Below are positions 18,995 through 40,572 of a DNA stretch of 64,000 nt, piece by piece. This stretch comes from Streptomyces sp. ERV7 (GTDB lineage: Bacteria; Actinomycetota; Actinomycetes; Streptomycetales; Streptomycetaceae): NCBI RefSeq assembly GCF_001653515.1, contig NZ_LYOY01000051.1, positions 1 through 64,000 on the forward strand. The letters run 5' to 3'. The notes under the pieces are model-generated. The model saw nothing but the letters and a program-made list of their open reading frames with translations. It had not been told where the DNA came from and searched no databases. Numbering within the stretch: position 1 is the first letter of the stretch; the number at the start of each line of letters is the position of its first letter. Position numbers and translations under genes: made by a program.

Positions 18995-19020
18995 CCCCCG
19001 CGCACGCCCCCGGACGCGCC

Positions 19021-19064: not shown

Positions 19065-19099
19065 TGCGGAGCGCCGCCGCGGATCGAAGGGGGTGTGAT

Positions 19100-19398: not shown

Positions 19399-19400
19399 AT

Positions 19401-19560: not shown

Positions 19561-19566
19561 GACGCG

Positions 19567-20559
19567 TCAGCGGCTCGGGACCACCGAGACGAGGTCGCGT
19601 CCCGCGGGGGCCTCGGGCACCGGCGGGATGGCCTCGCTGGCCACCGTCGGCCGCTGCCACTTCGGCGGGTGCCAGGGCTTGCCGCCCTCGGCCGGGCGGC
19701 CGAGGTTCGCGTGGACCGCGCGGGCGACGGCCTCGATGGTGTTGACGCCCTGGTCCATCGAGCTGTTGTCCTCGGTGAGGACGGCCAGGGCGTAGTCGTG
19801 GCCGCCGTCCGTGAAGGCGCCGATGCTGTGCACCCGCCAGCCGTGCGTGGCGCGCGGCAGCCAGCCGTTCTTGACGTGCACGGTCGTACCGCCCTGGACG
19901 CCCGCGGGCGTGCCCCAGCGCTGGCTGGCGATGACGCGGTTCATCAGGCCCAGCTCGTACTCGCGGGCGTCGTCGCTGAGCACCGAGTTGCGGGAGGTCA
20001 GCAGCGCGAGCAGCTTGGCCTGGTCGCGGGCGGTGATGCGGGTCAGGCCCCAGTAGCCGTCGGCGCCCGGCGTCGTCTGGGTCATCCCGGCGGCCTTGAG
20101 GAAGCCGGACACCTTGGAGGTGCCGAGCTGCTTCCACAGCGCCGACGTCGACTCGTTGTGCGACTCGGTGATCATCCTGGTGGCCAGGGCGCGCTCGTTG
20201 GAGGTGAGCGAGCGGTGCTGCTTGCCCGCGTCCCACAGCAGCGTCGCGAGCACGGTGGCCTTGACCACGCTCGCGGAGTCGAAGGTGTCGGTCGCCCGCA
20301 GCTCGCACTTGGTGCCGGTGGAGCGGTCGTACAGCGCCACGGCCGTCAGCGACGAACGGCCGCTGAGCGCGGAGGTGATGTCCTTGGACAGCTTGGCCGC
20401 GAGACCGGCCTTGGCGGAGGTGCAGCTCACCGTCGTCGCGGCGGCGGCCGGCGCCGCACCCGCGGCCACCGGCGCGAGCACGCCCGCGGCGACCGCCACG
20501 GAGAGCGCGCCGCGGCGGGCGCGGCGGGATATCCGGGCTGTGCGGAGTTGTCTGGGCAA
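19567..20559 (-). CDS. Secreted serine hydrolase, class A beta-lactamase-like
   Basis: 330 residues from TTG at 20559 with a G-rich ribosome site. The signal peptide (1-41) ends AAPAAAA. The penicillin-recognising fold shows an SxxK box in FDSASVVKATVL, an SDN-like motif in ITESHNESTSAL and a KTG-like motif in VHVKNGWLP. The third box reads K-N-G and the conserved omega-loop Glu of class A enzymes is not evident, so true beta-lactamase activity is uncertain. It may be a peptidoglycan-associated DD-peptidase/transpeptidase-like or inactive homologue. The C-terminus is Pro-rich (KPWHPPKWQRP). Its 3' end is only a few bases from the truncated lipoprotein, so its tail may itself be affected by the junction. 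Confidence 0.88.
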   Translation of the reverse strand: MPRQLRTARISRRARRGALSVAVAAGVLAPVAAGAAPAAAATTVSCTSAKAGLAAKLSKDITSALSGRSSLTAVALYDRSTGTKCELRATDTFDSASVVKATVLATLLWDAGKQHRSLTSNERALATRMITESHNESTSALWKQLGTSKVSGFLKAAGMTQTTPGADGYWGLTRITARDQAKLLALLTSRNSVLSDDAREYELGLMNRVIASQRWGTPAGVQGGTTVHVKNGWLPRATHGWRVHSIGAFTDGGHDYALAVLTEDNSSMDQGVNTIEAVARAVHANLGRPAEGGKPWHPPKWQRPTVASEAIPPVPEAPAGRDLVSVVPSR

Positions 20560-20734
20560 AGCGTCCCCGTCCCCTGTAAGTCGTGAGGTGGGCGCACCAC
20601 CGTGGCGCGCCCACCTGAGATGACTCGTCGAGGACGGGAAAGTTGTGCCTCGAAATCGTTGAACTCTGTCACAGCTCTGTCACTGGCGGACACCTACCGA
20701 CCGATACCGGACGGTTACGGGCCAGATACGGGCA

Positions 20735-22545: not shown

Positions 22546-22570
22546 TTCGCGTCCTCTCCCCGGAGCCGGG

Positions 22571-22612
22571 CCTGCCGCCGGGCAGCCGAAACGTCAGCCG
22601 CCCGGCGGCAGG
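22571..22612 (-). terminator. Hairpin between agmatinase and the ThDP enzyme
   Basis: CCTGCCGCCGGGC (22571-22583) pairs perfectly with 22600-22612 around a 16-base loop. Both genes read on the minus strand, so it would reduce read-through from agmatinase into the ThDP gene. Confidence 0.7.
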
Positions 22613-22618
22613 TGAAGG

Positions 22619-23608
22619 TCACTTCCCGGTCTGCCCCGTGCCTTCGGCGCGGCTCGCGGCGATCTGGCGGCTCATGATCGTGGTCAGCTCGTACGCGGTG
22701 TGCGAGGCCGCGACCGAGGTGATCTCGGCGTGATCGTACGCCGGGGCGACCTCGACGACGTCGGCCGAGACCAGGTTGCAGGAGGCCAGGCCGCGCAGGA
22801 TCTCCAGGAGCTCGCGGGAGGTCATGCCGCCCGCCTCCGGGGTGCCGGTGCCGGGGGCGTGCGCCGGGTCGAGGCAGTCGATGTCGATCGAGATGTACAG
22901 CGGGCGGTCGCCGATGCGCTGGCGCAGCTGGTCGGCGACCTCGTCGGCGCCGCGGCGGTAGACGTCGGCCGAGGTGACGATGCCGAAGCCCATCTTCTCG
23001 TCGTCGGTCAGGTCCTGCTTGCCGTAGAGCGGGCCGCGGGTGCCGACGTGGGAGAGCGCCTCGGTGTCGAGGATGCCCTCCTCGACCGCGCGGCGGAACG
23101 GGGTGCCGTGGGTGTACTCGGCGCCGAAGTAGGTGTCCCAGGTGTCCAGGTGCGCGTCGAAGTGGAGCAGCGCGACCGGGCCGTGCTTCTTGGCGACCGA
23201 GCGCAGCAGCGGCAGCGCGATGGTGTGGTCGCCGCCGAGCGTCATCAGCCGGGCGCCGGTGCCGAGCAGGTCGTCGGCGGCGGCCTCGATGGTGTCCACG
23301 GCCTCGTTGATGTTGAACGGGTTGGCCGCGATGTCACCGGCGTCGGCGACCTGGGCGAGCGCGAACGGCGAGGCGTCCTGTGCCGGGTTGTACGGGCGCA
23401 GCAGCCGGGAGGCCTCGCGGATGGCGTTGCCGCCGAAGCGGGCGCCCGGGCGGTAGGAGACACCGCTGTCGAAGGGCACACCGACCACGGCGACATCGGC
23501 GGTGCCGACCTCGTCGAGGCGGGGCAGCCGGGCGAAGGTCGCGGGGCCGGCGTACCGCGGGATGCGGGACGAGTCGATCGGACCGCGCGGCGTTTCGTTG
23601 CTGCTCAT
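22619..23608 (-). CDS. speB: Agmatinase / ureohydrolase family enzyme
   Basis: 329 residues of the arginase-agmatinase fold. The binuclear Mn ligands are present in the usual order: [20 protein letters not shown] and [19 protein letters not shown]. The family hydrolyses guanidino groups to urea plus an amine. SpeB proper makes putrescine from agmatine, but closely similar Streptomyces proteins can be guanidinobutyrases or guanidinopropionases. The substrate is therefore not certain. ATG at 23608 follows a plausible promoter at 23718-23690. It diverges from a PucR-type regulator, and the next gene on its strand is the ThDP enzyme. Together they suggest a locus for breakdown of a guanidino compound or purine-derived product. 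Confidence 0.9.
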
Positions 23609-23764
23609 GTCGGAGTGCCCTTCGTGATCGGCCTGCGTACGGGCCCGACGGCCCGTGGTTCCTCCGGGCCGGTGCGGCCCACGCTCGCCACCCTAGGTGG
23701 CCGTCCAGCGATACTGAAGTGTACGTTTCCTCCACTTACGGCCCCTCTGATGTACGGAGTGCCC
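23609..23764. promoter_or_regulatory. Divergent promoter region agmatinase / PucR regulator
   Basis: For agmatinase (minus strand): TTCAGT (23718-23713), 17-base spacer, TAGGGT (23695-23690), inside the palindrome CCACCCTAGGTGG. An inverted repeat AAGTG-n11-CACTT at about 23717-23737 is a candidate operator for the regulator. Confidence 0.5.
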
Positions 23765-24335
23765 ATGCCTGCCGAGCCCGCGGCGGCCCCGCCCACCACT
23801 CCCGTCCCGCTCTCCGCCCTCCTTGCCCGCGCGGACCTGGGCCTGCGGCACATCGCCGGGCCGCCGGAGGCCGCCGTGCACGGGGTGCACGCCTCGGAGA
23901 TGGCCGACCCGTATCCGTATCTGCTCGGCGGCGAGCTGCTGCTGACGGCGGGCGTGCAGCTCACCGACCCCGGGCGGTACGCGGCACGGGTCGCCGAGGC
24001 CGGGGCGGCCGCGCTGGGCTTCGGGCTCGCGCCGGTGTACGACACCGTCCCGGCCGGGCTGGTCGCCGCCTGCGAGCGGCACGGGCTGCCGCTGGTGGAG
24101 GTGCCGCCGCCGACCACGTTCACGGCGATCGCCCGCGCGGTGTGGGGCCTGCTGACCGAGGCCCGCCACCACGAGCTGCGCCGGGTCTCCCGGGCCCAAC
24201 AGGCCCTCGCCTCGGCCGCCGCCCACCCCGACCCCGTTCCGGCGGTGCTGCACCAGCTGGCGACACGCCTGGGCGGCTGGGCGGCGCTGCTCGACCCGGA
24301 GGGGGCGGTGGTGCGCTCGGCGGGCCCCGAGCCCG
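23765..24335 (+). pseudogene. PucR-family regulator, N-terminal part only
   Basis: ATG 23765 has GGAG five bases upstream. The first about 190 residues match a PucR N-terminal ligand domain: LSALLARADLGLRHIAG, ASEMADPYPYLLGGELLLTA, LPLVEVPPPTTFTAIARAVW. A linker follows (ALLDPEGAVVRSAGPEP). At about 24325-24340 the frame stops making sense; the open frame runs to 24724 but only as a shadow of a cupin. The CdaR/HTH_30 DNA-binding half is missing, so it should not bind DNA. It lies divergent from agmatinase, where such regulators normally control purine/guanidino catabolism. Confidence 0.85.
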
Positions 24336-24337
24336 TT

Positions 24338-24849
24338 ACCCCGACCCCCGTTACTTCGGCGACAGCGGCGAGATCAGCGCTGCCTTCCGGCCCTCCACCG
24401 CCCCGCCGGACTTCGTTTCCGCGCCCGTCGCCTCGTCCGGTCCGAACCTGGCGGGCGGCACCGCGTACCACTACCTGTCCACGACGATCTCCACCAAGGG
24501 CGATTACGGTCTGTACCGCGTGGACATGGGCCCGGAGGTCGCCGGTGCCAACACGCACTTCCACAAGGCGATGTCGGAGTCGTTCTTCGTCCTCTCCGGC
24601 ACCATGCGGCTGTACGACGGCGACCGCTGGGTCAACGCGACCGCGGGCGACTACCTCTACGTACCCCCCGGCGGGCTCCACGGCTTCCGCAACGAGTCCG
24701 GCGACCCGGCGTCCATGCTCATGATCTTCGCCCCCGGCGCGCCGCGCGAGGAGTACTTCGAGGGCATCACCCGCCTGGCCGACCTCACCGACGAGGAACG
24801 CGCCCAGTTCTTCCTCCACCACGACAGCTTCTTCGTACCGGACAACTGA
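24338..24849 (+). pseudogene. Cupin-domain protein, 5' end lost
   Basis: Frame +1 reads RYPDPRYFGDSGEISAAFRP and then a complete cupin barrel: TAYHYLSTTISTKGDYGLYR, motif 1 GANTHFHKAMSESFFVLSG, motif 2 GDYLYVPPGGLHGFRN, ending SFFVPDN. About 170 residues remain, apparently lacking only the first few. No start codon lies in frame near the fusion with the PucR fragment, and the first in-frame ATG (24528) would cut into the barrel. Metal-binding His/Glu residues are present, so the fold was functional before the deletion. The substrate is unknown. Confidence 0.82.
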
Positions 24850-24880
24850 CCCCCACCGGCGGGTACGCGAGAATCACGGC

Positions 24881-26029
24881 ATGGTGATCTCCGCGCGTGC
24901 CCTCAACCGTGCCACGCTCGCCCGGCAGTTGCTGCTCGGGCGCGAGCCGCTCGATGCCGTGGAGGCTCTGCGGCGCGTGGTCGCCCTTCAGGCGCAGCAG
25001 GCCGCCTCGCCGTACATCGCTCTGTGGAACCGGCTGCGCGACTTCGATCCGGCGCGGCTCGACGCGGCGCTGGCCGACCGCCGGATCGTGAAGGCGACCC
25101 TCATGCGCCTCACCCTGCACGCGGTGCATGCCGAGGACTACCAGGGCTTTCGCGAGGCCATGGAACCGACGCTGCGCTCCTCCCGGCTCGGCGACGCGCG
25201 CTTCCGCTCGTCCGGGCTCACCGGCGATGACGCCGACGCCCTGGTCGCCGGCCTCCTGAAATACACGGAAGAGCAGCGCAGCAGCGCCGAGTTGGGGGAC
25301 TGGTTCGAGAAGCGCCTCGGCCGGCCCCTGGAGACGGGGGCGCAGCGGATGCTGCGGCAGTACGCGCCGCTGTGGCACGCACCGACGGGCGGGCCCTGGT
25401 CGTTCACCCACCGGCTCTCGTACGTCGCGGCCGCCGAGCGGCCCGCCCTGGGGGATCCCGAGGCGGCCGACAAGGGCCTGCGGACCCTGATCCTGCGCTA
25501 TCTGGCGGGCTTCGGGCCGGCGTCGTCGGCCGACATGGCGCAGTTCGCGCTGGTCCACCGGCCGCGGGTCAAGGCGGCCGTGAACGCCCTCGCGGACGAG
25601 CTGGAGCAACTGGAGGGTCCCGACGGCACGGTGCTGTACGACCTTCCCGGCGCGCTCCGGCCGGAGGAGGACACGCCCGCCCCGGCGCGGCTGATGGCGA
25701 TGTGGGACAGCGTCCTGCTGGCGCACGCCGACCGCAGCCGCGTGATCCCGACCGCCTACCGCAAGCATGTGACCCGGGTGAACGGCGACGTACTGCCCAC
25801 CCTGCTGGTCGACGGCCAGGTCGCCGGAGTCTGGCGCGCCGCCGACGGCGGCATCGAGGCCAGTGCCTTCCATCCGCTGCCCAAGCACGTCTGGGAGGAG
25901 CTGGCGGGCGAGGCCCGGTCCCTCGTCGCCTTCCTCGCCGCCCGCGACCCGCGTGCCTACGCCCGCTACGACCACTGGTGGACCAAGGGCGTACCCGCCG
26001 CCGAGACCCGGCTGCTCCCCGGCGACTGA
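24881..26029 (+). CDS. Winged-helix HTH_42 protein, AlkZ-like DNA glycosylase candidate
   Basis: 382 residues of the PF06224 (HTH_42) family, typical length. Residues 37-39 read Gln-Ala-Gln within VVALQAQQAASPY. The bacterial DNA glycosylase AlkZ uses a QxQ pair at these same positions; the YcaQ branch has QxD. Three winged-helix-like units follow (about 50-130, 190-280, 290-370). AlkZ-type enzymes remove bulky alkylated bases and unhook interstrand crosslinks, some giving self-resistance to a natural product. No biosynthetic cluster is visible here, so a housekeeping repair role is as likely. ATG at 24881 has only a weak ribosome site. It follows the cupin fragment by 31 bp. Confidence 0.85.
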   Translation: MVISARALNRATLARQLLLGREPLDAVEALRRVVALQAQQAASPYIALWNRLRDFDPARLDAALADRRIVKATLMRLTLHAVHAEDYQGFREAMEPTLRSSRLGDARFRSSGLTGDDADALVAGLLKYTEEQRSSAELGDWFEKRLGRPLETGAQRMLRQYAPLWHAPTGGPWSFTHRLSYVAAAERPALGDPEAADKGLRTLILRYLAGFGPASSADMAQFALVHRPRVKAAVNALADELEQLEGPDGTVLYDLPGALRPEEDTPAPARLMAMWDSVLLAHADRSRVIPTAYRKHVTRVNGDVLPTLLVDGQVAGVWRAADGGIEASAFHPLPKHVWEELAGEARSLVAFLAARDPRAYARYDHWWTKGVPAAETRLLPGD

Positions 26030-26073
26030 CCCGGCGCCCACGCGCACGCGCACGGCGGGGCGTGCGTTTCCCC

Positions 26074-26102
26074 GTTTCCCGTTCGCACGGTCAGCGGGAA
26101 AC
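26074..26102 (+). terminator. Weak terminator after the glycosylase gene
   Basis: GTTTCCCG (26074-26081) pairs with CGGGAAAC (26095-26102). The surrounding 26030-26229 holds no gene. Confidence 0.5.
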
Positions 26103-26229
26103 CCGTCGACGCCACCGGGGGCGAGGGCGAGGCTTGGGCCCACGGAGGCTCACCGGCGCATCCGTTCATCGGCCCGTCCGTCCCTCGCCTCCCTCCACGC
26201 GTCGCCTCACCCGCTCATCGAGGAGTTCC

Positions 26230-26589
26230 ATGAAGCTGCGTTCCTGGTCGTCGACCGCCGCCCTTTCGCTGATCGCCGTACTCATGCCGGCCTCGGACGC
26301 GCTGGCGGCCCCGGCCGCGGCGGCCGTGCCCTCCTGTACCGGCGGATCGATCTGCTTCTTCACCGGATCCGACTACAACGGCCGCAGCTGGGAGTGGGTC
26401 GCCAAGGACGGGTACCACGACATGCCCGCCGACTTCCACGACAAGGTGGGCTCGTTCGTGGCGAACACCGACGGTTGCTTCATCAACTGGGACCCGAAGG
26501 AGACCCGGGTGGTGCGCAACGGCGACAACCGGATCAACTACCGCAGCGACTTCGGCGGCCGCATCGACGGCGTCGGCAACACCTGCTGA
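26230..26589 (+). CDS. Secreted peptidase inhibitor, family I36 (beta/gamma-crystallin fold)
   Basis: 119 residues from ATG 26230, with GAGGAG just upstream. The signal peptide (1-27) ends SDALAAPA. The mature part of about 90 residues shows the I36 pattern: CTGGSICFFTGSDYNGRSWE, DKVGSFVANTDGCF and a C-terminal Cys. Cys36, 42, 83 and 119 could form two disulfides. The prototype, Streptomyces metalloproteinase inhibitor, blocks thermolysin-type (M4) enzymes. Such an enzyme is encoded at 11921-13960 in this window, although not adjacent. It probably protects the cell or modulates its own secreted protease; other crystallin-like roles are possible. Confidence 0.88.
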   Translation: MKLRSWSSTAALSLIAVLMPASDALAAPAAAAVPSCTGGSICFFTGSDYNGRSWEWVAKDGYHDMPADFHDKVGSFVANTDGCFINWDPKETRVVRNGDNRINYRSDFGGRIDGVGNTC

Positions 26590-26611
26590 ACCGGCTGCCG
26601 CGCCCGCGGCC

Positions 26612-29503
26612 TCATAGGGACGCCGCCGCGTTCGTGGGCCGGTCCCCCTCCAGCGCGTCGGCCAGCTCGGTCCGGCGTCGGATCCGCAACTTCCGGTAGG
26701 CGCTGGTCAGATGGGTCTCCACGGTGCGGCGCGCCAGATGCAGCAGATCGGCGATCTCGCTGTTGGTCAGGCCGTCGGCGGCCAGTTCGGCGATGCGGCG
26801 CTCGCTGCCGGTCAGCGACCCGGGGCCGGTGTGCACCACCACGGGGCTGCGGGCGCCGCTCTGGTGCAGGGCCTGCCCGACCGCGGTGGCCATGCCCACG
26901 GCGCCCCTGCCCTCGGCCAGCTCGGCCGCCTCGCGCAGGCAGTCGCGGGCGTGGACGCGTTCACCGGCGGCATGGAGCTGACGGCCCTGGGCCAGCAGGG
27001 CCCGGACCAGCTCCATGCCCGTGTCGGCGGACGCCGACCGCAGGGTCTCCACGGCCTCCTCGGCCAGCTCCAGACCGCGCCGGCCCCCGGTGGCGGCGCC
27101 CAGTACGCGCAGGGCGCGGCCCACCGTGCGCGGGGTGTTCCACACCCGGGCCAGCCGCAGCTCCTCCGCCGCCAGGGTCAGCGCGTCCGCGCCGCCGCCC
27201 AGCGCCAGCCGGCACTGCGCCGCGGCCGTGCGCCACGGGGTGACGATCGGGCTGAGCACATCGCGGGCGGACTGGCGGCGTCCGCACTCCAGGAAGTCGT
27301 GCAGCGCGCCCGCCGGGTCGCCGGCGGTGACCCGCAGCGCGCCGCGCGCGTAGAGGAACCGGTTCAGCTCGAAGTTCGCCGTCGGGTCGTGCAGGTCGAA
27401 CCCGGCGGCGAACCGTTTTGCCTCGTCGAGGCGGCCGTTGTGGACGAGCGCCAGCAGAGCAGTGGCGTCCCGGTTGGTCGGGCTGGTGCGGGACTCCACG
27501 GGGAGCTGGGGCGGAGTGCCGTCGCCGAAGTGGTCGGAGAGCAGTCGGTCGGCATCGCCTCGGGAAGCGGCGATGTCGGCGCGGGTGTTGAGGAGTGCGT
27601 GCCGCATCGGATGCAGCAGGAGCGGGTGCTGTCCGGAGAGACCGTGGTCGACGAGCCGGTCCGCCTCGTCGAGTTCGTCGGCCCACTGGGCCACCGCGGC
27701 CGCCGTCCCCAGCAGGAACGGCTCGGCGAGCGGGTCGGTGGGCTGGGCGAGCAGGTCCCGTATCCGCGTCATCGCCTCCTGGGCCGAGATCAGCGCGGCC
27801 GTCGCCGCGTACCGCACGAGCAGGGCCTGCCCGGCGGTGCCCACCAGCTCCGGGGAGTACTGCGCCGCCTCGCACAGCCACCGGTAGACCTGCTGGCGGG
27901 TCTCGGGGTCCGCGTCGGACATGAGGGCGGCCGCGGTCTGCACGGTACGGGCCAGGTCCGGGTGGTCTGAGGAGAGCCGGCCCTCCGTGCGGCGCAGGAC
28001 CTCCAGGGCCGTACGGATCTCGCCGCGGCTCACCAGGGCGGTGCCGAGGGCGACAGCGGTACGCACCCGGGTCCGGGGCTCGGCCGCCAGGTGGTGCGCC
28101 TCGGCGAGGCGCGCGATGGCCGCCGGGACGTCGGACGACGCGTAGTGCAGGGAGCCCAGTTCGGTGAGCAGCCGCTGTCGCAGGCCGTCGGGGAGTGGTT
28201 CGTCCAGGGCGCGGCGCAGATAGTCGACGGCGTCCTCGTGCCGGGCGTCGTGCATCGCCACCGTCACCGCGTCCCGCAGCACGCGCACCACCCACGGCAG
28301 ATCGCCGCCCGGCACCCGCAGCAGATGCCGGGCGACCGGCTCGGCCCGCTCGCCCCGGCGCATCATGGCCCGCGCGGCCGCCCGGTGCGCCGCCTGCCGG
28401 CTCGCCTCGGGCCAGCCGGTGAGCACCGCGTCGCGCAGCAGGGGATGCGCGTAGCGGGGGCGGCCGGTGGCGTCGGGACGCAGCAGGCCGAGCCGCGTCG
28501 CCGCGGTGAGCCAGCCGGCGATCCGGACGGGGTCGCCACCGGTTGCCTCGGCCAGGAGGTGCACCGGATCGCTCGCCGCCTCGTCGGCGCCGTCCGCCGA
28601 GGGGTGCCCGGCTGCCTCCTGACCGCTCGGGTCGTCCACGGTGGTGCCCACGGGGTCCACCGGCCACGCCTGTTCCAGCGCCGCCAGACAACGGGCCACC
28701 TCGGCCGTGGCGGGACCGGCGCTGTGCAGCCACCAGGCGACGGCCGCCGGATAGGACCCGGGATACAGCTCGGCGCAGGTCTCGGGCACGGGCGCGGGTC
28801 CGCCGTCCCCGGGAGGATCGTGCCGCTGGGCGTCGCCCAGGTCGTCGAGAAGGGCGTGCAGCAGCAGCGGACTGCCCGCGGCGGCGCGCACACACGCCGC
28901 CGTCCACTGTGGCCCGGCCCCCGGGAAAGCCTCCCGGACCAGGTCGTCGGCCGCCGCGTTGCCGACCGGGGCGAGGGTGTGGGTGCGGACGAGGGAGGGG
29001 GGCAGCGGCTGGGTGAGTCCGGCGGGCCCTGCCTCGATGTCGTACTGGCTGCGCTCGGTGGCCACCACCAGGACGGGTAACCGGTCGACACGCCGGGCCG
29101 CGTCGCGCAGCCAGCGGCACGAGGCGGCGTCGGCCAGGTGCACGTCGTCGACGGCCAGCAGCAGCGGGCCCCCGTCGGCGTACGAGCGCAGCAGCCGCCA
29201 CAGCCGGTCCGCGGTGCCGTGCTCGTCCTCGGCGGGCGCGAGGCCCGTGAACTCCGGTACGGGGTCCAGCAGACGCAGCACCGCGGCGAAGGGCACCGCG
29301 GTGTCCTCCGCCGAGCAGCGCACGCGCAGCACCCGCAGACCGCGCCCTTCGGCGTGTTCGGCGGCCGCCTCCAGCACGGCGGTACGGCCGGTGCCCGTGG
29401 CGCCGCGCAGCACGACCAGCCCGCCGGTGCCGCCCCGGGCGCGCTCGGTCTCCTCCGCGACCAGCGCCTGGGCGCGGTCGCGTTCGCGGAGCGGTCCGCT
29501 CAT
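26612..29503 (-). CDS. Large ATP-binding LuxR-family regulator (LAL)
   Basis: 963 residues. The N-terminal AAA/STAND ATPase (about 1-330) has a Walker A variant GATGTGRT and Walker B LLLAVDDVHLAD. A long helical TPR-like region follows (about 400-880). The C-terminal LuxR helix-turn-helix (about 895-950) has LTGSERRIAELAADGLTNSE and ARRTVETHLTSAYRKLRIR. LAL proteins are signal-responsive activators. It is divergent from a second LuxR-type gene and the DUF4255/AAA genes. This is the arrangement at the regulatory end of Streptomyces contractile-injection-system loci, which suggests it once controlled that system. Its ribosome site is doubled by a 15-bp duplication at 29506-29535. Confidence 0.92.
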   Translation of the reverse strand: MSGPLRERDRAQALVAEETERARGGTGGLVVLRGATGTGRTAVLEAAAEHAEGRGLRVLRVRCSAEDTAVPFAAVLRLLDPVPEFTGLAPAEDEHGTADRLWRLLRSYADGGPLLLAVDDVHLADAASCRWLRDAARRVDRLPVLVVATERSQYDIEAGPAGLTQPLPPSLVRTHTLAPVGNAAADDLVREAFPGAGPQWTAACVRAAAGSPLLLHALLDDLGDAQRHDPPGDGGPAPVPETCAELYPGSYPAAVAWWLHSAGPATAEVARCLAALEQAWPVDPVGTTVDDPSGQEAAGHPSADGADEAASDPVHLLAEATGGDPVRIAGWLTAATRLGLLRPDATGRPRYAHPLLRDAVLTGWPEASRQAAHRAAARAMMRRGERAEPVARHLLRVPGGDLPWVVRVLRDAVTVAMHDARHEDAVDYLRRALDEPLPDGLRQRLLTELGSLHYASSDVPAAIARLAEAHHLAAEPRTRVRTAVALGTALVSRGEIRTALEVLRRTEGRLSSDHPDLARTVQTAAALMSDADPETRQQVYRWLCEAAQYSPELVGTAGQALLVRYAATAALISAQEAMTRIRDLLAQPTDPLAEPFLLGTAAAVAQWADELDEADRLVDHGLSGQHPLLLHPMRHALLNTRADIAASRGDADRLLSDHFGDGTPPQLPVESRTSPTNRDATALLALVHNGRLDEAKRFAAGFDLHDPTANFELNRFLYARGALRVTAGDPAGALHDFLECGRRQSARDVLSPIVTPWRTAAAQCRLALGGGADALTLAAEELRLARVWNTPRTVGRALRVLGAATGGRRGLELAEEAVETLRSASADTGMELVRALLAQGRQLHAAGERVHARDCLREAAELAEGRGAVGMATAVGQALHQSGARSPVVVHTGPGSLTGSERRIAELAADGLTNSEIADLLHLARRTVETHLTSAYRKLRIRRRTELADALEGDRPTNAAASL

Positions 29504-29650
29504 CGGTGCCTCCTGATCCTGTGCCTCCTGATCTTGGTGCTTCCCCCTGGTTAGACGCGGGAAGGCCGCCGGAAGTGAGGGTGAGATGGGTCACGCGAGG
29601 CGAAGTGGGATGCCTCGGGGCCCTGTTCGCGGGGGCGGCGCGAAGCTCTC
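29504..29650. promoter_or_regulatory. Divergent region with duplicated Shine-Dalgarno
   Basis: On the minus strand GATCAGGAGGCAC occurs twice with a 15-bp period (plus coordinates 29506-29518 and 29521-29533). Two AGGAGG sites thus precede the ATG at 29503; the nearer is five bases away. No promoter was identified with confidence. Confidence 0.7.
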
Positions 29651-30442
29651 GTGGTGTGTCTCGTGGTGGTCCACGATTGCGCGCGCCACCACGGCCGAAG
29701 AAGGGTGAGGGCAAGCCATTCGCTGCCGGACGCACTCGTACGGCAGGCTCGTGAACAGGGGAAACGGTTGCTCAACTCACCACGGACCGCGGTCGCGTCC
29801 GATACGGGAGAGGGCGGTGCGGCCCGTCGGCGCGTCGCGGTGGCGGTCACCGCCCCGGACCCGATCAGCCGCGAGGGAGCCGTCAGCCAGTTACGCCGGC
29901 ACCCGGAGATCGAGCTGCGCGAGAAGACCGGTCCCGACACGGTCGCCCTGTTCATCGAGAACACGCTCGACGAGGCCGCGCTCAGCAGGCTGCGCCGGAT
30001 CGTGCGCAGCGAGGGCGCGCGGGCCGTGGTCGTGGTCGACGCGATCCGTGAGACGGAGCTCCTGGACGTCGTCGGGTGCGGCATCGGCGCCATTGTGTGG
30101 CGCCACGAAGCCACCGCCCACCGCCTCGTGCAGGCGGTCCTCGCCGCCTCCCGCGGCGACGGAGACCTCCCGGCCGACCTGCTCGGACGGCTCATCAGCC
30201 AGGTGGGCAGCCTGCACCGGGGCACGGAGGGCCGCCTCGGCGCCCCCTCGCTGGGCCTCGTACCGCGCGAGGTGGACGTACTGCGGCTGATAGCCGACGG
30301 CCTCGACACCGGGGAGATCGCCGGCAAGCTGTCGTACTCCGAACGCACCGTCAAGAACGTCATCCACGCCCTCACCACCCGGCTGCATCTGCGCAACCGC
30401 GCCCATGCGGTGGCCTACGCCCTGCGGGAGGGCTACATCTGA
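29651..30442 (+). CDS. LuxR-type regulator with degenerate receiver domain (CIS-locus regulator)
   Basis: 263 residues if started at GTG 29651; TTG 29768 after AGGGGAAA is a good alternative and would remove a basic lead. The middle (RRRVAVAVTAPDPISREGAV to about 180) resembles a receiver domain. However, the usual phospho-acceptor Asp site is replaced by hydrophobic strand sequence (ARAVVVVDAIRETELLD), so phosphorylation control is doubtful. The C-terminal helix-turn-helix is clear: LVPREVDVLRLIADGLDTGE, YSERTVKNVIHALTTRLHLR. It is immediately upstream of the DUF4255 and AAA+ genes and divergent from the LAL regulator. A similar pair flanks the contractile-injection locus in S. coelicolor as far as I recall. 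Confidence 0.85.
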   Translation: MVCLVVVHDCARHHGRRRVRASHSLPDALVRQAREQGKRLLNSPRTAVASDTGEGGAARRRVAVAVTAPDPISREGAVSQLRRHPEIELREKTGPDTVALFIENTLDEAALSRLRRIVRSEGARAVVVVDAIRETELLDVVGCGIGAIVWRHEATAHRLVQAVLAASRGDGDLPADLLGRLISQVGSLHRGTEGRLGAPSLGLVPREVDVLRLIADGLDTGEIAGKLSYSERTVKNVIHALTTRLHLRNRAHAVAYALREGYI

Positions 30443-30606
30443 CCGAACGGGCAAGCCGCGGCGGCCTTGTGGGGCCGCAGGGGCAAGGACCTCTGCCCGG
30501 CCGTCGGTCCGGCCGTGCCTGCGGGCGGGGCGTCGCGCGAGGCACGATCGGTGGGAGAAGGCGGACAGCGAGGGAGCCGGCGGACCGGCATGGCGGGAGC
30601 GCGAGC

Positions 30607-31284
30607 GTGATCCACGAGGTGGACGAGGTACTCAAACGCCTCCTCGGCGGGGGAGCGCTGGCCGGCTCCGGCATCGACGTGTCCTTCGAGGCACCCACCC
30701 GGGACTGGGCGGCCCGGCGCAACGCCCCCGTGGTCAACACCTATCTGTACGACATCCGGGAGGACACCGAGCGGCGCCAGCGCGGTCAGATGCCGGTGCG
30801 CGACGAGCGGGACATCGTGGTGCGCCGCCGCCGGCCACCGCGCTGGTTCCGCCTGTCGTACCTGGTGACGGCCTGGACCAAGACCCCGCATGACGAACAC
30901 CGGCTGCTGTCCGCCGTACTGGCGACCCTGCTGCCGCACGAGCTCGTCCCGTCGGCCGAACTCCCCGCCTCCCTCGCGGCGCTGGGCCTGTCGGTGCCGG
31001 TGACGGTGGCAGGCAGCCGGACGGAGTCCCGCTCGCTCGCCGAGATCTGGTCCGCCCTGGGCGGCGAACTGAAACCGTCCCTCGATCTGGCGGTGACCGT
31101 GCCCTTCCCCTCCTATCCGGAGTACGACGCCGGGCCTGCGGTCACCGAGGGGGCGACCGTGCGGCTGCGCGGCCCCGACGACGGTCCACCGCAGTCCTCC
31201 GAGCGCTCCCACCGGCCGCACCAGGTGGCCGCCGCCCGCGCCGCCCGTGACGCCGCCGCCGCTGACAGCGCGGACGCGCGGTGA
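30607..31284 (+). CDS. DUF4255 (Pvc16 N-terminal-type) protein: contractile injection system cap/terminator
   Basis: 225 residues from GTG 30607 (GGGAG nearby). The DUF4255 core lies at about 1-185: IHEVDEVLKRLLGGGALAGS, VVNTYLYDIREDTERRQRGQ, FRLSYLVTAWTKTPHDEHRL, LDLAVTVPFPSYPE. A His/Ala-rich tail follows. Proteins of this family cap the sheath-tube of phage-tail-like particles and occur almost only in extracellular/cytoplasmic contractile injection loci. The stop overlaps the ATPase GTG as GTGA, so the two are coupled. The sheath, tube and baseplate partners it needs are not in this window, so it is probably without function here. Confidence 0.9.
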   Translation: MIHEVDEVLKRLLGGGALAGSGIDVSFEAPTRDWAARRNAPVVNTYLYDIREDTERRQRGQMPVRDERDIVVRRRRPPRWFRLSYLVTAWTKTPHDEHRLLSAVLATLLPHELVPSAELPASLAALGLSVPVTVAGSRTESRSLAEIWSALGGELKPSLDLAVTVPFPSYPEYDAGPAVTEGATVRLRGPDDGPPQSSERSHRPHQVAAARAARDAAAADSADAR

Positions 31285-33449
31285 ACGCCCGGTTCGCCGG
31301 GACACCGGCCGCCGTCCACGGCCCACCGGTGCCGGGACCGCACGACGACCCCGCCCACGCGTTGGTCGCCCGCCTCGCCGTCCTGCGGGAACAGGTGGCC
31401 GCGCTGGTCGCGCACCGCGCGGCCACCGACGCCACCGCCGAGGACCCGCTGCGCGGCCTCTACCTGTCCGACGAGGCCGTGCACCACCTGCTGCACACCA
31501 CGGCCGACGGCGTCTCCGGCATCGCCGTCCCCTTGACGGACACGGGCCATGGCGCACCGCCGTCAGCCGCCCTCGGCTTCTCCGGCGGTCCCGACGGCCG
31601 CGCCCACCACGACCCCGCCGACCGGCTGGCGCGGCTGGCCGAGCGGACGGGGCTGACCGAGTGGGACACCACTGTCCTGCTCATCGCCCTCGCCCCGGAC
31701 ATCGACCGCACCTTCGAGTCGCTCTACGGCTACCTCAACGACGACGTGAGCCGGCGCCGCGCCACCGCGGGCCTGGCCCTCGATCTGTGCGGGCTGCCCG
31801 CGTCCACGGCGGGAGCACGTGCCCGCCTCCACGCGTCGGCGCCGCTGCGCGCCCTCGGGCTGCTGGAGGACGAGGAGCCCGAACGCCCCTTCCTCAGCCG
31901 TGTGTTGCGCGTGCCCGACCGGCTGATCGGCCATCTTCTCGGTGACGACACCCCGGACGCCGCCCTGATCGGACGGCTGGACCCGCTGCCGGACCCCCTG
32001 CCGGCCGCCCCCGGCACCGAGGACTTCACCGACCGGCTGGCCGCCCGGCTGCGTACCGGCCCGCTCCTCGCCTATCTGCGCGAACCACGCGAGGGGGACG
32101 GCCTGGCCGCCCTCGCCACCGCCCTGCGCGCGGCGGGCCTCGACGCGCTGCGCTGCGCGGACCCGGCGGAGCACGTTCCCGAGCTGCTGCGCGAGGCACG
32201 TCTGAGCGGGCGGGCCGTCGTCGTGCCGGGCCTGCCCGAACGCCCCGGCGAGCTGGTCCGGGCGCTCACCGCCGCACCGGACGTGACCGTACTGCTGACG
32301 GACCCCCGCCCCTACGACCCGCACTGGTCCCCGCACGACCCGCTCGTCCTGGAAGCCCCGGGCCGCCGGGCCGGGGGAACGGCCGCCTGGCAGGCCGCGC
32401 TGGGCGCGGACGCCGACGGCTTCGACCTGGCCGCCACCGTCGCCCCCTACCGCCTCGGCGGCGACCGCGTCCAGCGGGCCGCGCAGGCCGCCCGCGCCCT
32501 CGCGGCCTTCGAGGGCACCCCGGTGACCGCCGCCCATGTGCGCCGCGCCGCCCGCCGCCAGTCGGCCTCGGGTCTGGAACGGCACGCCCGGCGGATCCGG
32601 CCCGACGTGGACTGGCGGGACCTCGTCCTGCCCGAAGGGCCCCTCACCCAGCTGCGCGAACTCGCCCTGCGCGCCCGCCACCGCGACCGCGTGCTGGGCG
32701 ACTGGCGGCTCAGCGCGGGCGGTGGACGAGGCAGGGGCGTCCTCGGTCTGTTCGCGGGCGAGTCCGGCACCGGAAAGACCCTGTCGGCCGAAGTGGTCGC
32801 GGCCGACCTCGGCCTCGACCTCTACGTCGTCCAGCTGTCCTCCGTCGTCGACAAGTACGTGGGCGAGACCGAGAAGAACCTGGAGCGGATCTTCACCGAG
32901 GCCGACCGCACCGACGCCGTACTCCTCTTCGACGAGGCCGACGCCGTCTTCGGCAAGCGCTCCGAGGTGAAGGACGCGCACGACCGTTACGCCAACATGG
33001 AAAGCGCCTATCTGCTCCAGCGCCTGGAGTCCTTCGACGGCATCGCGCTGCTCACCACCAACCTGCGCGCCAACATCGACGAGGCGTTCACCCGGCGTTT
33101 GGACCTGGTGGTCGACTTCCCGTTCCCCGACGCCGGGCAGCGCCTGGCCCTGTGGCGGCACGGTCTCGTGCACGTCCCCTCCGCCGACGGCATCGATCTG
33201 GCCCCGCTGGCGCGGGACTTCGAGATGGCCGGCGGGTCGATCCGCAGCGCGGTCGTCTCCGCCGCGTATCTGGCCGCCGGCCGCGGTGACGAGGTCACCG
33301 CGGCCGACCTGCTGGAGGGCGCCCGCCGCGAGTACCGCAAGGCGGGCCGGGCGGCGCCGATTGAGCAGGCGGGATCGGGCCGACCAACGTGGGGTTCCGG
33401 CCACCACGCGCGGGGAGTTGTCCGCGATCTCTCCCGGAAATGTCCGTGA
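31281..33449 (+). CDS. AAA+ ATPase of a contractile injection system, C-terminus altered
   Basis: 722 residues. A long N-terminal winged-helix/regulatory part (about 20-430) precedes an AAA+ core (about 455-690) with Walker A GLFAGESGTGKTLSAE, Walker B AVLLFDEADAVFGKRS, sensor LLTTNLRANIDEAF and arginine finger FTRRLDLVVDFPF. CIS ATPases of the Pvc15 type have this build and aid particle assembly or disassembly. The family-like sequence stops at REYRKAGRAAP (about 33355). The remaining 30 residues (SGRPTWGSGHHARGVVRD) look like translated non-coding DNA, marking the edge of the deleted CIS structural genes. The native end was probably within a few residues of the junction, so the enzyme may still fold. 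Confidence 0.88.
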   Translation: MNARFAGTPAAVHGPPVPGPHDDPAHALVARLAVLREQVAALVAHRAATDATAEDPLRGLYLSDEAVHHLLHTTADGVSGIAVPLTDTGHGAPPSAALGFSGGPDGRAHHDPADRLARLAERTGLTEWDTTVLLIALAPDIDRTFESLYGYLNDDVSRRRATAGLALDLCGLPASTAGARARLHASAPLRALGLLEDEEPERPFLSRVLRVPDRLIGHLLGDDTPDAALIGRLDPLPDPLPAAPGTEDFTDRLAARLRTGPLLAYLREPREGDGLAALATALRAAGLDALRCADPAEHVPELLREARLSGRAVVVPGLPERPGELVRALTAAPDVTVLLTDPRPYDPHWSPHDPLVLEAPGRRAGGTAAWQAALGADADGFDLAATVAPYRLGGDRVQRAAQAARALAAFEGTPVTAAHVRRAARRQSASGLERHARRIRPDVDWRDLVLPEGPLTQLRELALRARHRDRVLGDWRLSAGGGRGRGVLGLFAGESGTGKTLSAEVVAADLGLDLYVVQLSSVVDKYVGETEKNLERIFTEADRTDAVLLFDEADAVFGKRSEVKDAHDRYANMESAYLLQRLESFDGIALLTTNLRANIDEAFTRRLDLVVDFPFPDAGQRLALWRHGLVHVPSADGIDLAPLARDFEMAGGSIRSAVVSAAYLAAGRGDEVTAADLLEGARREYRKAGRAAPIEQAGSGRPTWGSGHHARGVVRDLSRKCP

Positions 33450-33545
33450 TCCGTAACAGACGCATCCCTTCGCCTCGATGTCTCGTCCTGCCAGGTGGTC
33501 GCAAGGCGACCGGGGATCGGCGAGGAACTGCGCAAAGGGGCGGAC

Positions 33546-34319
33546 ATGGCACGGCACGGCGGCGGGCGGGTCTGGTACGGCAAGGTCGTCGGGGCGGCGA
33601 TCGGGGTGACGATGCTCGCCACGGGTGCCTCGGTATGGACCGCGCAGGCCGGTGGCGCGGGCGAATCGTCACCGAAGGCGACCGCGCCGACCAAGCCGGC
33701 CAGTGACGTCAAGCCGGTCGAGACGAGCATCGCGCACGCCTCGGAGGCGGGAGCGCGCGGCGTCAACATCACCATCGACGACGGCCCCGACCCCCGGTGG
33801 ACCCCTCAAGTGCTCGACCTGCTGCGGGAGTACGGGGTGAGGGCCACGTTCTGCATGGTGGGGACGCAGGCGCAGGCCCACCCCGACCTCGTGAAGAAGG
33901 TGGTCGCGGCCGGGCACCGGCTGTGCGACCACTCGGTGTCGCACAACACCGCCATGGACAAGAAGTCCCAGGCCTACCAGTCACAGCAGATACTCGACGC
34001 CGAACGCATGATCACCGAGGCGTCCGGGGGCGTACGGCCGATGTACTACCGGGCGCCCGGTGGGGCCTTCACCCCCTACAGCCGCCAGCTCGCCGCTTCC
34101 CGGGGCATGCGCCCGCTGGGCTGGAACGTGGACAGCAAGGACTTCGAACGCCCGGGTACGAACGCCATCGTCGCCACCGTCGAGCGGGAGCTGCACAACG
34201 GACCGACGCTCCTCTTCCACGACGCGGGCGGCGACCGCACGCAGACCGTCCAGGCCCTGCGCCGCCTCCTCCCTTGGCTCAAGGAGCAGGGCTACTCCTT
34301 CGGCTTCCCGGTGCGCTGA
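33546..34319 (+). CDS. Secreted polysaccharide deacetylase (NodB domain)
   Basis: 257 residues from ATG 33546, with AAAGGGG nine bases upstream. The signal sequence (GKVVGAAIGVTMLATGASVW) is followed by a linker. The NodB domain (about 75-255) has catalytic motif 1 VNITIDDGPDPRWTP, metal-binding His pair in CDHSVSHNTAM, motif 3 YYRAPGGAF and motif 4 LLFHDAGGDR. It removes N- or O-acetyl groups from extracellular glycans such as peptidoglycan or chitin-type polymers. Its upstream DNA abuts the truncated CIS ATPase. Its last 28 bases overlap a convergent permease fragment. Confidence 0.92.
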   Translation: MARHGGGRVWYGKVVGAAIGVTMLATGASVWTAQAGGAGESSPKATAPTKPASDVKPVETSIAHASEAGARGVNITIDDGPDPRWTPQVLDLLREYGVRATFCMVGTQAQAHPDLVKKVVAAGHRLCDHSVSHNTAMDKKSQAYQSQQILDAERMITEASGGVRPMYYRAPGGAFTPYSRQLAASRGMRPLGWNVDSKDFERPGTNAIVATVERELHNGPTLLFHDAGGDRTQTVQALRRLLPWLKEQGYSFGFPVR

Positions 34320-34714
34320 ACCGAACGCCGACGCGATGGCGAGGGCCGTGCGCCGTCACTGGAGGCAGGTATCCGCACGCGACCGATGGCGACGGCGAGA
34401 AGGGCCACGGTCAGGCACACGGCCACCACGGCAGGGAGCACGTACGCGTCCAGGCCCTCCTTGCCGGACAGCAGAGGATCAGCACTCTGCGCCAGAGCCT
34501 GAGGAGTCCACGACCTGATGGAGTCCACGGCCGCGAGGCCGGGCAGCACCCCCAGGAGCACCCCGAGCGAGCAGCCGACGGCCGCCAGCACGCTCCGCAG
34601 CATCGAGGCGATGGCTGCGACGGTCGCGACGGCGAAGGCCAGAGCACAGTCCACGCGGGCTACGACGCCGGGGATTCCACGCTCGCCGTGGTCCATGACC
34701 GACTGAACTCGCAC
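34292..34714 (-). pseudogene. C-terminal fragment of an ABC-2-type permease
   Basis: Up to 140 residues. The middle reads as the last helices of a permease: AFAVATVAAIASMLRSVLAA, LGVLLGVLPGLAAVDSIRSW, and LPAVVAVCLTVALLAVAIGR. These are joined by an extracellular-looking loop ending GLDAYV. The first 25 residues of the frame do not belong to any such family and there is no ATPase gene nearby. A complete permease would have about 120-150 further residues. It overlaps the deacetylase stop by 28 bases. I read it as a deletion remnant. Confidence 0.6.
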
Positions 34715-34732
34715 AAACCCCTTTGAGGTTCT

Positions 34733-36781
34733 TCACGTCCGCTCGGGTACGGCCTGGGTGTGGAGGGTCGCGTCGGGGGCCAGTCGGGCGAGGACGGGAC
34801 GGTTGGCGGAGTCCGTTGCCAGGGAGGCCGCGCCGACCACGGCCCCGGGGACGGTGTTCCAGCGCGGGAGGCGGCCGGTGCCCAGGCGGGCCAGGCTCGT
34901 ACTGCCGTCGTTGTCGCGGGCGGCCAGAAGCACTCCGCCGGGTATGGGCTGCAGGGCGAGCGGGCCATAGCCGCGGCTGCCCAGATTGACGCGTTCGTCG
35001 CGCCACCTGTCGCCGTTGGCCGGGAGCGTGCGGACCAGCGGACGGGCCGTCCTGGCCTCGCGGAAGGCGAGGAGGAGCGAACCGTCGGGCCGGGCCAGCG
35101 CCGTGGGCGGATCGGCCGGTGCGGGCAGCCCGGTGGGGACGAGGACGAAGGGTCCCCCCGGCTTCTGCTGCGCCCAGTGGCAGACGGTGCGGTGTCCGGC
35201 GCCGAAGACGTGGACAGCCCCCTTGGCGTCGGTGACGGCGCTGAGTCCTTCTTGGACTTCGGCGCCGCCCAGGTCCCTCCAGTCGCTCCAGATACCGTCG
35301 GCTCGCTGGGTGCGGACGGAGACGCCCTTGGCCCAGTTGCGTGCGAACAGCCAGGTGGTGCCGTCGGCGCCGCGGGTCACGACGGGCCCGCCGACCCGGC
35401 GGGCGCGCTCGGGGTCGTGGTCGGGGGCGCCCAGTGAGCTCCATGCGGGGAACGGTCCGCCCTGGCGCGGCTGCTCCGTCGTGACGATCTCGCGGCGGTT
35501 GTCCTTCGCTCCGGGGCCGAGGGAGACAACGCGCTCGGCGAACAGCTGTCGGCGTCCGTCCTTCGTCAGCAAGGCAGTCAGGCCCGGCAGCAGCCCCTTG
35601 CCGGCCAGCAGCTTCGGCGCTGTCCACTTTCCGCTGCCGGGCTCGGTCTCCTGCCACATGGCGGCCTGCCCGCCGAGGACGGCGAACGCGGTCAGCCGCC
35701 CGTCCGGTGCCTGCCCCAGCTGCGGGGCGGCGGTGGGGTAGCGCAGCGAGGTGCGCTGGAGCCAGCCGGTGCCGTACGAGCGGTCCCGGCCGACGTCGTA
35801 GTCTCCGCAGCCGCCGGACGCCTTGTTGTCACAGCCCTTCGGGGAGCCTCCGTAGGCGTTGAGGACGTTCGCCTTGCCGCGGACGATCTGCGCCGGGAGC
35901 GCCTGCGGCCAGCGCTCGTTGTAGTAGCCGCGGAAGGCGGTGACGGCGTGCGGGGCCCGGTAGCGGTCGAGGGCCGCGTAGGTGAACAGCGCGGTGGCGG
36001 TGTGGTCGGGGTGGTCGGAGTAACCGCGCTGGTCGTGGTGGGCGCGGTGCTTCGCGTCGTGGACCTGCAGGTCCGGGTCGGGGTCCATGGTGCGTACGAG
36101 CGTGGGCCGGTAGCTGTCCATCAGGTAGGCCAGCGTGTCTATCAGCCCGGCGCGGGTGACCTGGTGTGATGCCCGCACGGGGGAACCGGTGCTGATGAGG
36201 GTCGGGGTGACCGTGTGGGGGGTCTCCCAGAGATGCCGCAGGTCACCGTTGGGGGTTGTGCCGCGCGAGGAGTGCTGGGACACGCCGAGAAAGATCAGTC
36301 GGATGCCGGGGCGGTGGCTCAGGACGTCCACTTCGATGGGGGTGCCGTCGGGCAGGGCGGTGGCCTGCCTCGCCCACGGTGCCCTGGTGTCACCGGTCGC
36401 CATGAGCGCGTACGCCTGGCGCAGGCCCTGCCTGCGGGCACCGGCGTAGTCGGCGACATTGGGCTTGGCGGACGACTTGCGGCCGGGGACCTTGTTGCGG
36501 CCGTCGGCCTCACCGCTGGTCACATAGACGCTGACGAGCTGGTCGTTGGCATCGATGGACTGCTGGAGATCGGGGTTCATGAAGTACAGGTCGTCGTCCG
36601 GGTGGGCGAGGATCTGCATGACCCGGGCACCGCTCGCACCGTCCCGGGACGCCTGCACCGTGCCGCGCTTGTGGACCGTTGGGGCGGCGAGCGTCGACGA
36701 GGCGGGAGTGCAGGCCGATATCGCCGCGGCAAGGGCTATGAGGCCGGCGATGAGGGCGCGGCGAGCAGGCTGTGACGGCAC
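34733..36781 (-). CDS. PIG-L family deacetylase lipoprotein with C-terminal beta-propeller-like region
   Basis: 682 residues from GTG 36781 (GAGAGA upstream); an ATG at 36874 adds 31 residues without a signal character. The signal ends in ISAC (Cys24), a plausible lipobox. The PIG-L/LmbE zinc domain (about 50-310) has QILAHPDDDLYFMNPDLQQS and the distal His cluster GYSDHPDHTATALFTYAAL. The C-terminal about 330 residues show repeated W/G-rich strands (DGRLTAFAVLGGQAAMW, RADGIWSDWRDLG), consistent with a propeller that may bind glycans. It should deacetylate an N-acetylglucosamine-containing substrate at the cell surface. The gene is unpaired. Confidence 0.88.
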   Translation of the reverse strand: MPSQPARRALIAGLIALAAAISACTPASSTLAAPTVHKRGTVQASRDGASGARVMQILAHPDDDLYFMNPDLQQSIDANDQLVSVYVTSGEADGRNKVPGRKSSAKPNVADYAGARRQGLRQAYALMATGDTRAPWARQATALPDGTPIEVDVLSHRPGIRLIFLGVSQHSSRGTTPNGDLRHLWETPHTVTPTLISTGSPVRASHQVTRAGLIDTLAYLMDSYRPTLVRTMDPDPDLQVHDAKHRAHHDQRGYSDHPDHTATALFTYAALDRYRAPHAVTAFRGYYNERWPQALPAQIVRGKANVLNAYGGSPKGCDNKASGGCGDYDVGRDRSYGTGWLQRTSLRYPTAAPQLGQAPDGRLTAFAVLGGQAAMWQETEPGSGKWTAPKLLAGKGLLPGLTALLTKDGRRQLFAERVVSLGPGAKDNRREIVTTEQPRQGGPFPAWSSLGAPDHDPERARRVGGPVVTRGADGTTWLFARNWAKGVSVRTQRADGIWSDWRDLGGAEVQEGLSAVTDAKGAVHVFGAGHRTVCHWAQQKPGGPFVLVPTGLPAPADPPTALARPDGSLLLAFREARTARPLVRTLPANGDRWRDERVNLGSRGYGPLALQPIPGGVLLAARDNDGSTSLARLGTGRLPRWNTVPGAVVGAASLATDSANRPVLARLAPDATLHTQAVPERT

Positions 36782-37257
36782 AGGGGATCTCTCACAGGTG
36801 GGCGGGCAGTTCGTACGGGCCGGGGCGCGGGACACGAAAAGACGTGCACCGGCACGGCGGTCTGCCCGAGGCACAGCACGGCGTTGACCGGGGTCGGTGA
36901 GACTTCGTCGAGCCGATCAGTGGCGCTGGGTGCGAGCAACCGTGGAGACGCTACAAAGAGCGCACGTAGGTATTCCCTCGGCTGTGTAACGACTGTCCGG
37001 ACATTGCCGTGCGAAGCTGTTAAGTCGCCGCCCTGCCCCACTGTTGAGGCCGGGTGTTTTCACGTGCTGGGCACAGCTGTGACCTGGGCCCAGGAAGCCG
37101 ATCTGTCGCCCGCGAAGACCCGACGACTCCCCCATGGTGCCCGCACGCACCCCACCACCCAGAACTATGGTGCCCCACCACATACGCCCCTGACCTGCGC
37201 ATTCCTACGGTATGGCCACACACAACCGTCCCCGCCAACCGCCAGGAAGTGCTGCTG
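36782..37257. promoter_or_regulatory. 476-bp intergenic region between divergent genes
   Basis: Two divergent genes start here (36781 and 37258). GC is slightly reduced. Open frames across it have no protein-like composition. AGGAAG at 37244-37249 is the ribosome site for the transporter ATG. No convincing promoter or operator was seen. Confidence 0.5.
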
Positions 37258-38625
37258 ATGTCCTCCCCAGCGACCTCTCCCCCAGCCCGCTCCACCCTCC
37301 CCCGCATCGTCGCCGCGAGCCTCATCGGGACGACGATCGAGTGGTACGACTTCTTTCTGTACGGGTCGGCCGCCGCGCTCGTCTTCAACAAGCTGTTCTT
37401 TCCCGGGTCCGACCCGCTCGTCGGCACGCTGCTCTCGTTCCTGACGTACGCCGTCGGGTTCGCCGCCCGGCCTCTGGGTGCGCTGGTCTTCGGGCACTTC
37501 GGGGATCGGGTCGGGCGCAAGAAGCTGCTCGTGCTGAGTCTGCTCATGATGGGTGGGGCGACCTTCTCGATCGGGCTGCTGCCGACGCATGCCACGGTCG
37601 GCTCCGCCGCGCCCGTGCTGCTCACCGCCCTGCGGCTGGTGCAGGGCTTCGCGCTCGGCGGCGAGTGGGGCGGGGCCGTGCTGCTGGTGTCGGAGCACGG
37701 GGACGCGCGGCGGCGCGGGTTCTGGGCATCCTGGCCGCAGACCGGGGCGCCCGCCGGGCAGTTGCTCGCGACCGGCGTGCTCTCCGCGCTCACCGCGCTG
37801 CTCTCCGACGACGCCTTCCTCTCCTGGGGCTGGCGGGTGCCGTTCCTGCTGTCCGGGGTGCTGGTCCTCGTAGGGCTGTGGATACGGCTGTCGGTCGATG
37901 AATCACCCCTGTTCAAGGCCGCGTTGGAGCAAGCGGAGGCGCGTCGGGCCGCCGAGCCCGACCGGGTGGCGGAGAAGCTGCCGCTCGTCGCCGTGCTGCG
38001 CGACCACTGGCGCGACGTACTGGTCGCGATGGGCGCCCGCATGGCGGAGAACATCAGCTACTACGTGATCACCGCGTTCATCCTCGTGTACGCGACGACC
38101 TCGGCCGGGATGGCCAAGCAGACCGCGCTGAACGCCGTACTGATCGCCTCCGCCGTGCACTTCGCGGTGATCCCCGCCTGGGGCGCGCTCTCCGACCGGA
38201 TCGGGCGGCGGCCCGTCTATCTGATCGGCGCGGTGGGTGTCGGCGCCTGGATGTTCCCCTTCTTCTCGCTGATCGACACGGGCGACTTCGGCAACCTCGT
38301 CCTCGCCGTCACCGTCGGGCTGGTGTTCCACGGGGCCATGTACGCGCCCCAGGCCGCTTTCTTCACCGAGATGTTCGCGACCCGGATGCGCTATTCGGGA
38401 GCCTCGATCGGCGCCCAGTTCGCCTCGGTCGCCGCAGGCGCGCCCGCCCCGCTCATCGCCACCGCCCTCCTCAAGGACTACGACAGCTCCACCCCCATCG
38501 CCCTCTATGTGATCGCGGCCGCCCTCCTCACGGTGATCGCGCTGATCTGTGCCCACGAGACGCGCCACCGCGACCTCGCGGAGGTCGACGCCGAGAGCCG
38601 CCCCCAGGACTCCGTCAGCGTCTGA
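37258..38625 (+). CDS. MFS transporter, metabolite:H+ symporter (MHS) family
   Basis: 455 residues with twelve predicted helices. The family hallmarks are at the start: IVAASLIGTTIEWYDFFLYG, FGHFGDRVGRKKLLVLSLLMMGG (loop 2-3 signature), GGEWGGAVLLVSEH, and GALSDRIGRRPVYLIG in the second half. MHS members import organic acids, betaines or shikimate with protons. The gene converges, with an 11-base overlap, on a GAF/PucR regulator that heads 3-hydroxybutyrate dehydrogenase. A carboxylate such as 3-hydroxybutyrate is therefore an attractive but unproven substrate. Confidence 0.92.
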   Translation: MSSPATSPPARSTLPRIVAASLIGTTIEWYDFFLYGSAAALVFNKLFFPGSDPLVGTLLSFLTYAVGFAARPLGALVFGHFGDRVGRKKLLVLSLLMMGGATFSIGLLPTHATVGSAAPVLLTALRLVQGFALGGEWGGAVLLVSEHGDARRRGFWASWPQTGAPAGQLLATGVLSALTALLSDDAFLSWGWRVPFLLSGVLVLVGLWIRLSVDESPLFKAALEQAEARRAAEPDRVAEKLPLVAVLRDHWRDVLVAMGARMAENISYYVITAFILVYATTSAGMAKQTALNAVLIASAVHFAVIPAWGALSDRIGRRPVYLIGAVGVGAWMFPFFSLIDTGDFGNLVLAVTVGLVFHGAMYAPQAAFFTEMFATRMRYSGASIGAQFASVAAGAPAPLIATALLKDYDSSTPIALYVIAAALLTVIALICAHETRHRDLAEVDAESRPQDSVSV

Positions 38626-40531: not shown

Positions 40532-40572
40532 GTTCACAGGGATACCTGCCGTACGGGCGGCCGCGCCAGCCC

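Follow-up and report, generated by a model that had tools for sequence, protein, structure and literature searches.

The control end of a contractile injection cluster in Streptomyces sp. ERV7, cut within its ATPase gene at what may be an assembly join

Four genes of Streptomyces sp. ERV7, lying within a window of 64,000 nucleotides (the whole stretch of DNA analysed, at the start of contig NZ_LYOY01000051.1), are the control end of a Streptomyces contractile injection cluster of the bldA-linked sco4242-sco4263 type, with matching gene order. The last of them, encoding an AAA+ ATPase, loses its homology at position 33350, shortly before its usual end, and searches of the whole assembly detected no sheath, gp25 or baseplate gene. 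We infer, with moderate confidence, that the break is an assembly join and that the rest of the cluster is absent from the assembly but not from the organism; we rank this above a true recent deletion, which we regard as a serious but lesser possibility.

The first gene of the set (26612-29503, minus strand, 963 aa) encodes a LAL-type regulator with Pfam matches to AAA_16 (1.5e-14) and GerE (3.1e-13) and a TTA triplet at codon 142, and judging by position and type it is presumably the counterpart of SCO4263/SlpR. Divergently from it follow, all on the plus strand, a LuxR-type regulator (29840-30442, 200 aa; GerE 5e-12), a Pvc16_N/DUF4255 cap protein or tail terminator (30607-31284, 225 aa; PF14065 4.1e-43) and the AAA+ ATPase, whose homologous part spans 31281-33350 (variant winged helix 6e-24, AAA 3.2e-22 in Pfam). 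Coding bias and comparison with relatives point to 29840, 30607 and either 31281 or 31329 as the likely starts of LuxR, cap and ATPase, respectively. Protein identities to seven relatives are 59-76% for the LAL regulator, 76-88% for the LuxR regulator, 77-83% for the cap protein and 70-81% for the ATPase, and search listings give for the latter 83% to G136 and 81% to Streptomyces coelicoflavus NBRC 15399 (L046). The same four genes stand in the same order in the clusters of all seven relatives, with the LAL gene of G118 split into two ORFs, so the Pfam matches and these relatives agree with the sequence-only reading, in which divergent LAL and LuxR regulators, a DUF4255 cap and an AAA+ ATPase had been recognised in cluster order. 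Matches of the ATPase in PADLOC and NCBIfam (IetA/IteA, CDC48) span the AAA region, those in NCBIfam lying far under the cut-offs, and a blastn search of a phage collection returned no match to suggest a phage origin. The TTA at codon 142 of the LAL gene also occurs in G136, G118 and G038. A second TTA, at codon 18 of the LuxR gene (29891-29893), is absent from all seven relatives and possibly constitutes an extra bldA gate.

Among the features by which eCIS subtype IId is recognised, the window contains a Pvc16_N terminator gene, a cluster-type AAA+ ATPase gene (its C-terminus missing) and a TTA-containing regulator gene, this last being a common but not universal trait. The likeness to the S. 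coelicolor cluster sco4242-sco4263 (CIS-Sc, eCIS IId; SLP in S. lividans), which rests on published descriptions, thus extends to terminator, AAA+ ATPase and TTA-containing regulator; unlike that cluster, the window has no sheath, tube or baseplate genes and the end of its ATPase is cut. Clusters of this kind are common and already known, potential ones being reported for 94 of 116 Streptomyces genomes in PMC10066040. Among the literature matches listed on incomplete clusters, none was on point.

How the locus looks when complete is evident from its relatives. In each of the seven, between one and five other genes follow the four-gene set and then come the sheath and further structural genes; apart from the sheath, we take these structural proteins to be what their position and size suggest. 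S. coelicoflavus NBRC 15399 and G136 have the same four genes as the window, but, unlike it, a sheath gene downstream (at 19457 in L046; in G136 roughly 10 kb away from the ATPase). Part of the region is also matched by 114 plasmid records, and the one inspected, plasmid NZ_CP108387.1 of Streptomyces sp. NBC_01324, bears a complete cluster. LuxR, DUF4255 protein and ATPase have there the order seen in the window, although a hypothetical gene separates the first two and the annotation shows no LAL gene beside them; immediately behind the ATPase come sheath, tail proteins, LysM, VgrG-related protein, PAAR, gp25 and baseplate proteins.

In the window these structural genes are missing. Nine structural proteins of G136 gave no match in the window at E 1e-3, whereas eight of the same nine match the clusters of all seven relatives and the ninth those of six, which bears out the earlier statement that sheath, tube and baseplate genes are lacking there. 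The sequence-only reading had also proposed a search of the full genome. In the source assembly (G000; 7,105,287 bases in 116 contigs, completeness 95.95, contamination 5.04) neither the sheath domain PF04984 nor the gp25 domain PF04965 was found in 7.1 Mb, in searches whose controls worked (positive in three and two of 14 control genomes, respectively), and the G136 baseplate protein, which matches all seven relatives, had no match in the whole assembly. The tube domain PF06841 likewise gave no match, but as it gave none in the 14 control genomes either, this result is uninformative. Small contigs were also compared, 32 being readable among 40 fetched from a total of 112 (the other eight, all shorter than 3 kb, read as N and were dropped), and none of the nine structural proteins matched in these 32. 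The earlier suggestion that the structural genes have moved elsewhere in the same genome is therefore not supported as far as this assembly goes, and although the location of complete clusters does vary, with one on a linear plasmid, we consider such a relocation extremely improbable.

A further suggestion was that regulators and ATPase have been kept for another use. Close relatives of the ATPase are, however, almost always accompanied by a sheath. Within a sample drawn evenly from the genus (150 genomes, among them G000), 27 others contain an ATPase of at least 68% identity in one long match, and 26 of these have the sheath domain. Five more (G023, G077, G084, G091 and G108) have the ATPase in two pieces, all with a sheath. 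Among the best 80 of 413 relatives, a set that may share species with the genus sample, a sheath was found in every case, in 65 within the fetched stretch and in 15 elsewhere in the genome. The single exception in the genus sample is G073, where the ATPase was found and a sheath was not, as expected of a stand-alone module in which regulators, cap and ATPase serve another task without an injection particle; its assembly, however, consists of about 1140 contigs, and a contig edge is 2.4 kb from the ATPase. Intact frames in all four genes of the window and the retained TTA codon of the LAL gene would also fit such a module; the lack of the usual C-terminus in the ATPase speaks against it. With a sheath present in 26 of the 27 and in all 80, we rejected this explanation as very unlikely, and a four-gene module conserved alone in many genomes was not seen. 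We give equally little credence to an orphan control module, in which the machine would have been lost and the bldA-gated regulators, terminator and ATPase would have taken other genes as targets, perhaps the deacetylase alongside.

The break itself can be placed exactly. Homology of the ATPase stops at 33350 with the residues EYRKAGR, about eight residues short of the usual stop. In all 80 orthologous ATPase loci a short conserved tail follows EYRKAGR, ending in W or F in 79 and reading LVPGTWA in one, and this tail is absent from the window, where AAPIEQAG follows and the frame runs on to a stop at 33449, making 33351-33449 read-through. The change of character noticed earlier in the ATPase frame at about 33355 is therefore real, alignment of the C-terminus to homologues, a check then proposed, placing it at 33350/33351, close to that estimate. 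Between the end of ATPase homology and the beginning of homology on the other side lies an interval of at most 33351-33362.

On that other side, outside the cluster, stand the upstream region and gene of a polysaccharide deacetylase (33363-34319, plus strand, with the gene at 33546-34319; PF01522 8.4e-31), and the domain match confirms the next gene as the unrelated deacetylase first proposed. This region is 89% identical in DNA to G299, the match beginning at 33363, and as a query it found some match, often weak, in 378 of 392 genomes. Strong conservation of both gene and upstream region extends to many Streptomyces. Across the 12 inspected stretches the neighbours of the gene differ from one to the next, although G136 and G118 are alike; the surroundings of this gene thus change often, as a deletion that brought it next to the ATPase would allow, and the gene is perhaps mobile as a single-gene unit. 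Stretches around the deacetylase in relatives (10, then 13 mapped) were surveyed for a pre-deletion or empty site, and none has the order of the window across 24-37 kb. Farther right, several relatives share a block of about eight genes (37249-47657) in the same order, unlike all that precedes it in the window, which is variable, and an exact 83-bp tandem repeat occupies 43843-44007.

A reason to doubt the break lies to its left, where the contig begins as a mosaic of near-identical copies. Positions 1898-7160 are 100% identical to the final 5263 bases of contig C29 and carry a class II tRNA synthetase gene with a GAD domain, 7176-11691 are a 99.96% copy of a segment standing twice in tandem in contig C40, and 19528-24333 are a 99.95-99.96% copy of C29:1110465-1115145. 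The last copy is damaged. Two ORFs that are whole in C29, 1111672-1113357 (561 aa) and 1114562-1116046 (494 aa), are in the window split and cut at the right edge, 24333, respectively, and at the left edge, 19528, a frame whose start resembles a signal peptide seems to be interrupted. What splits the first of these ORFs is an additional tandem duplication of about 125 bp at 22020-22279. In C40 itself (1671017-1680173; L200), the tandem consists of a 4579-bp segment present twice at 99.96% identity, and the palindromic repeat of window positions 7148-7195 recurs at the junction inside it. From 24334 onwards there follow an ORF that is presumably cupin-like, an AlkZ-like gene recognised by Pfam, another small ORF and then the four cluster genes. 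The copies within 1898-24333 are probably an assembly error. Exact or near-exact duplication is also found among the 32 small contigs, where C8 equals C45, C52 lies within C15, and C15, C116 and C31 have tandem copies, whereas a search of the assembly with the small contig C50 gave no near-identical copy, which counts against wholesale duplication.

A mosaic start, cut genes and exact duplicates together make false joins or false copies likely, crowded at this contig end, and the interruption at 33350, where the first cut gene beyond the mosaic is met, may on these grounds be an assembly join. The control stretch 44001-64000, in which no near-identical copy was found and the best other match reached 75%, agrees with this reading, as do the contamination and completeness values of the assembly, the sheath found in all 80 genomes with an ortholog and the lack of clear decay in the four genes. 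Several observations stand against it. The segment 24334-40537 had no near-identical copy among the best four of 1271 candidates scored, so 33350 is not itself the edge of a copied segment; 1-1897, 11692-19527 and 24334-33350 lack a second near-identical copy, which most chimeras of random reads would be expected to have; and the edges at 1898 and 7160/7176 adjoin copies of a dispersed palindromic repeat, but 33350 does not. Moreover, three structural markers are missing throughout the assembly, as would be expected had the cluster been deleted.

By such a deletion the last ATPase codons and everything through the structural genes would have been lost, bringing the deacetylase alongside and leaving the control end as an undecayed remnant. 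The apparent single-copy state of 24334-40537 is compatible with it, yet the proposed breakpoint sits near a contig end where many joins are suspect, and, as a sheath accompanies the orthologous ATPase in 80 of 80 genomes, a loss that spares the control end is rare. The four genes would also have to have lost their partners recently. Measured against G038, dN/dS for the window and for G136, respectively, is 0.408 and 0.341 for LAL, 0.174 and 0.148 for LuxR, 0.252 and 0.238 for the cap and 0.278 and 0.260 for the ATPase (pairwise values, without a significance test), and the corresponding dN values are 0.214 and 0.173, 0.104 and 0.067, 0.138 and 0.117, and 0.126 and 0.124. Constraint on the four genes is relaxed slightly at most, which is compatible with deletion and with an assembly join, and there is no clear decay. 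We accordingly keep to the assembly join as the better supported reading and put the chance of a true deletion well short of even. In the sequence-only reading of a reduced locus, the control end, the broken ATPase and the missing structural genes have stood, relocation and a new use have not, and a join made in assembly had not been considered.

What the four genes would do in an intact cluster can be suggested by analogy with work on S. coelicolor and S. lividans. In PMC10020575, eCIS regions are said to invariably encode such an ATPase together with a Pvc16_N terminator, an S. coelicolor ATPase mutant is described in which particles look normal and biological activity is absent, and sco4263 is given as bldA-dependent through a TTA codon; PMC8505568 reports that slpR, the S. 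lividans counterpart of sco4263, is required for particles. By analogy, the LAL regulator would switch on the operon, the bldA tRNA being needed because of the TTA codon, the cap would terminate the tube and the sheath, and activity would depend on the ATPase. With its TTA at codon 142, the piece looks like a switch under bldA control followed by the two leading genes of the operon, and because it includes no sheath, tube or baseplate gene, it would build no particle alone. At 33350, some eight codons short of the usual ATPase stop, the sequence gives way to the upstream region of the unrelated deacetylase gene.

Under either reading, no new system is shown. If the deletion is not real, the locus warns against accepting a 'reduced' cluster near a contig end in one genome before reads support it. 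Should the deletion be real, a widespread Streptomyces cell-death machine would be naturally knocked out in this strain, and recently so.
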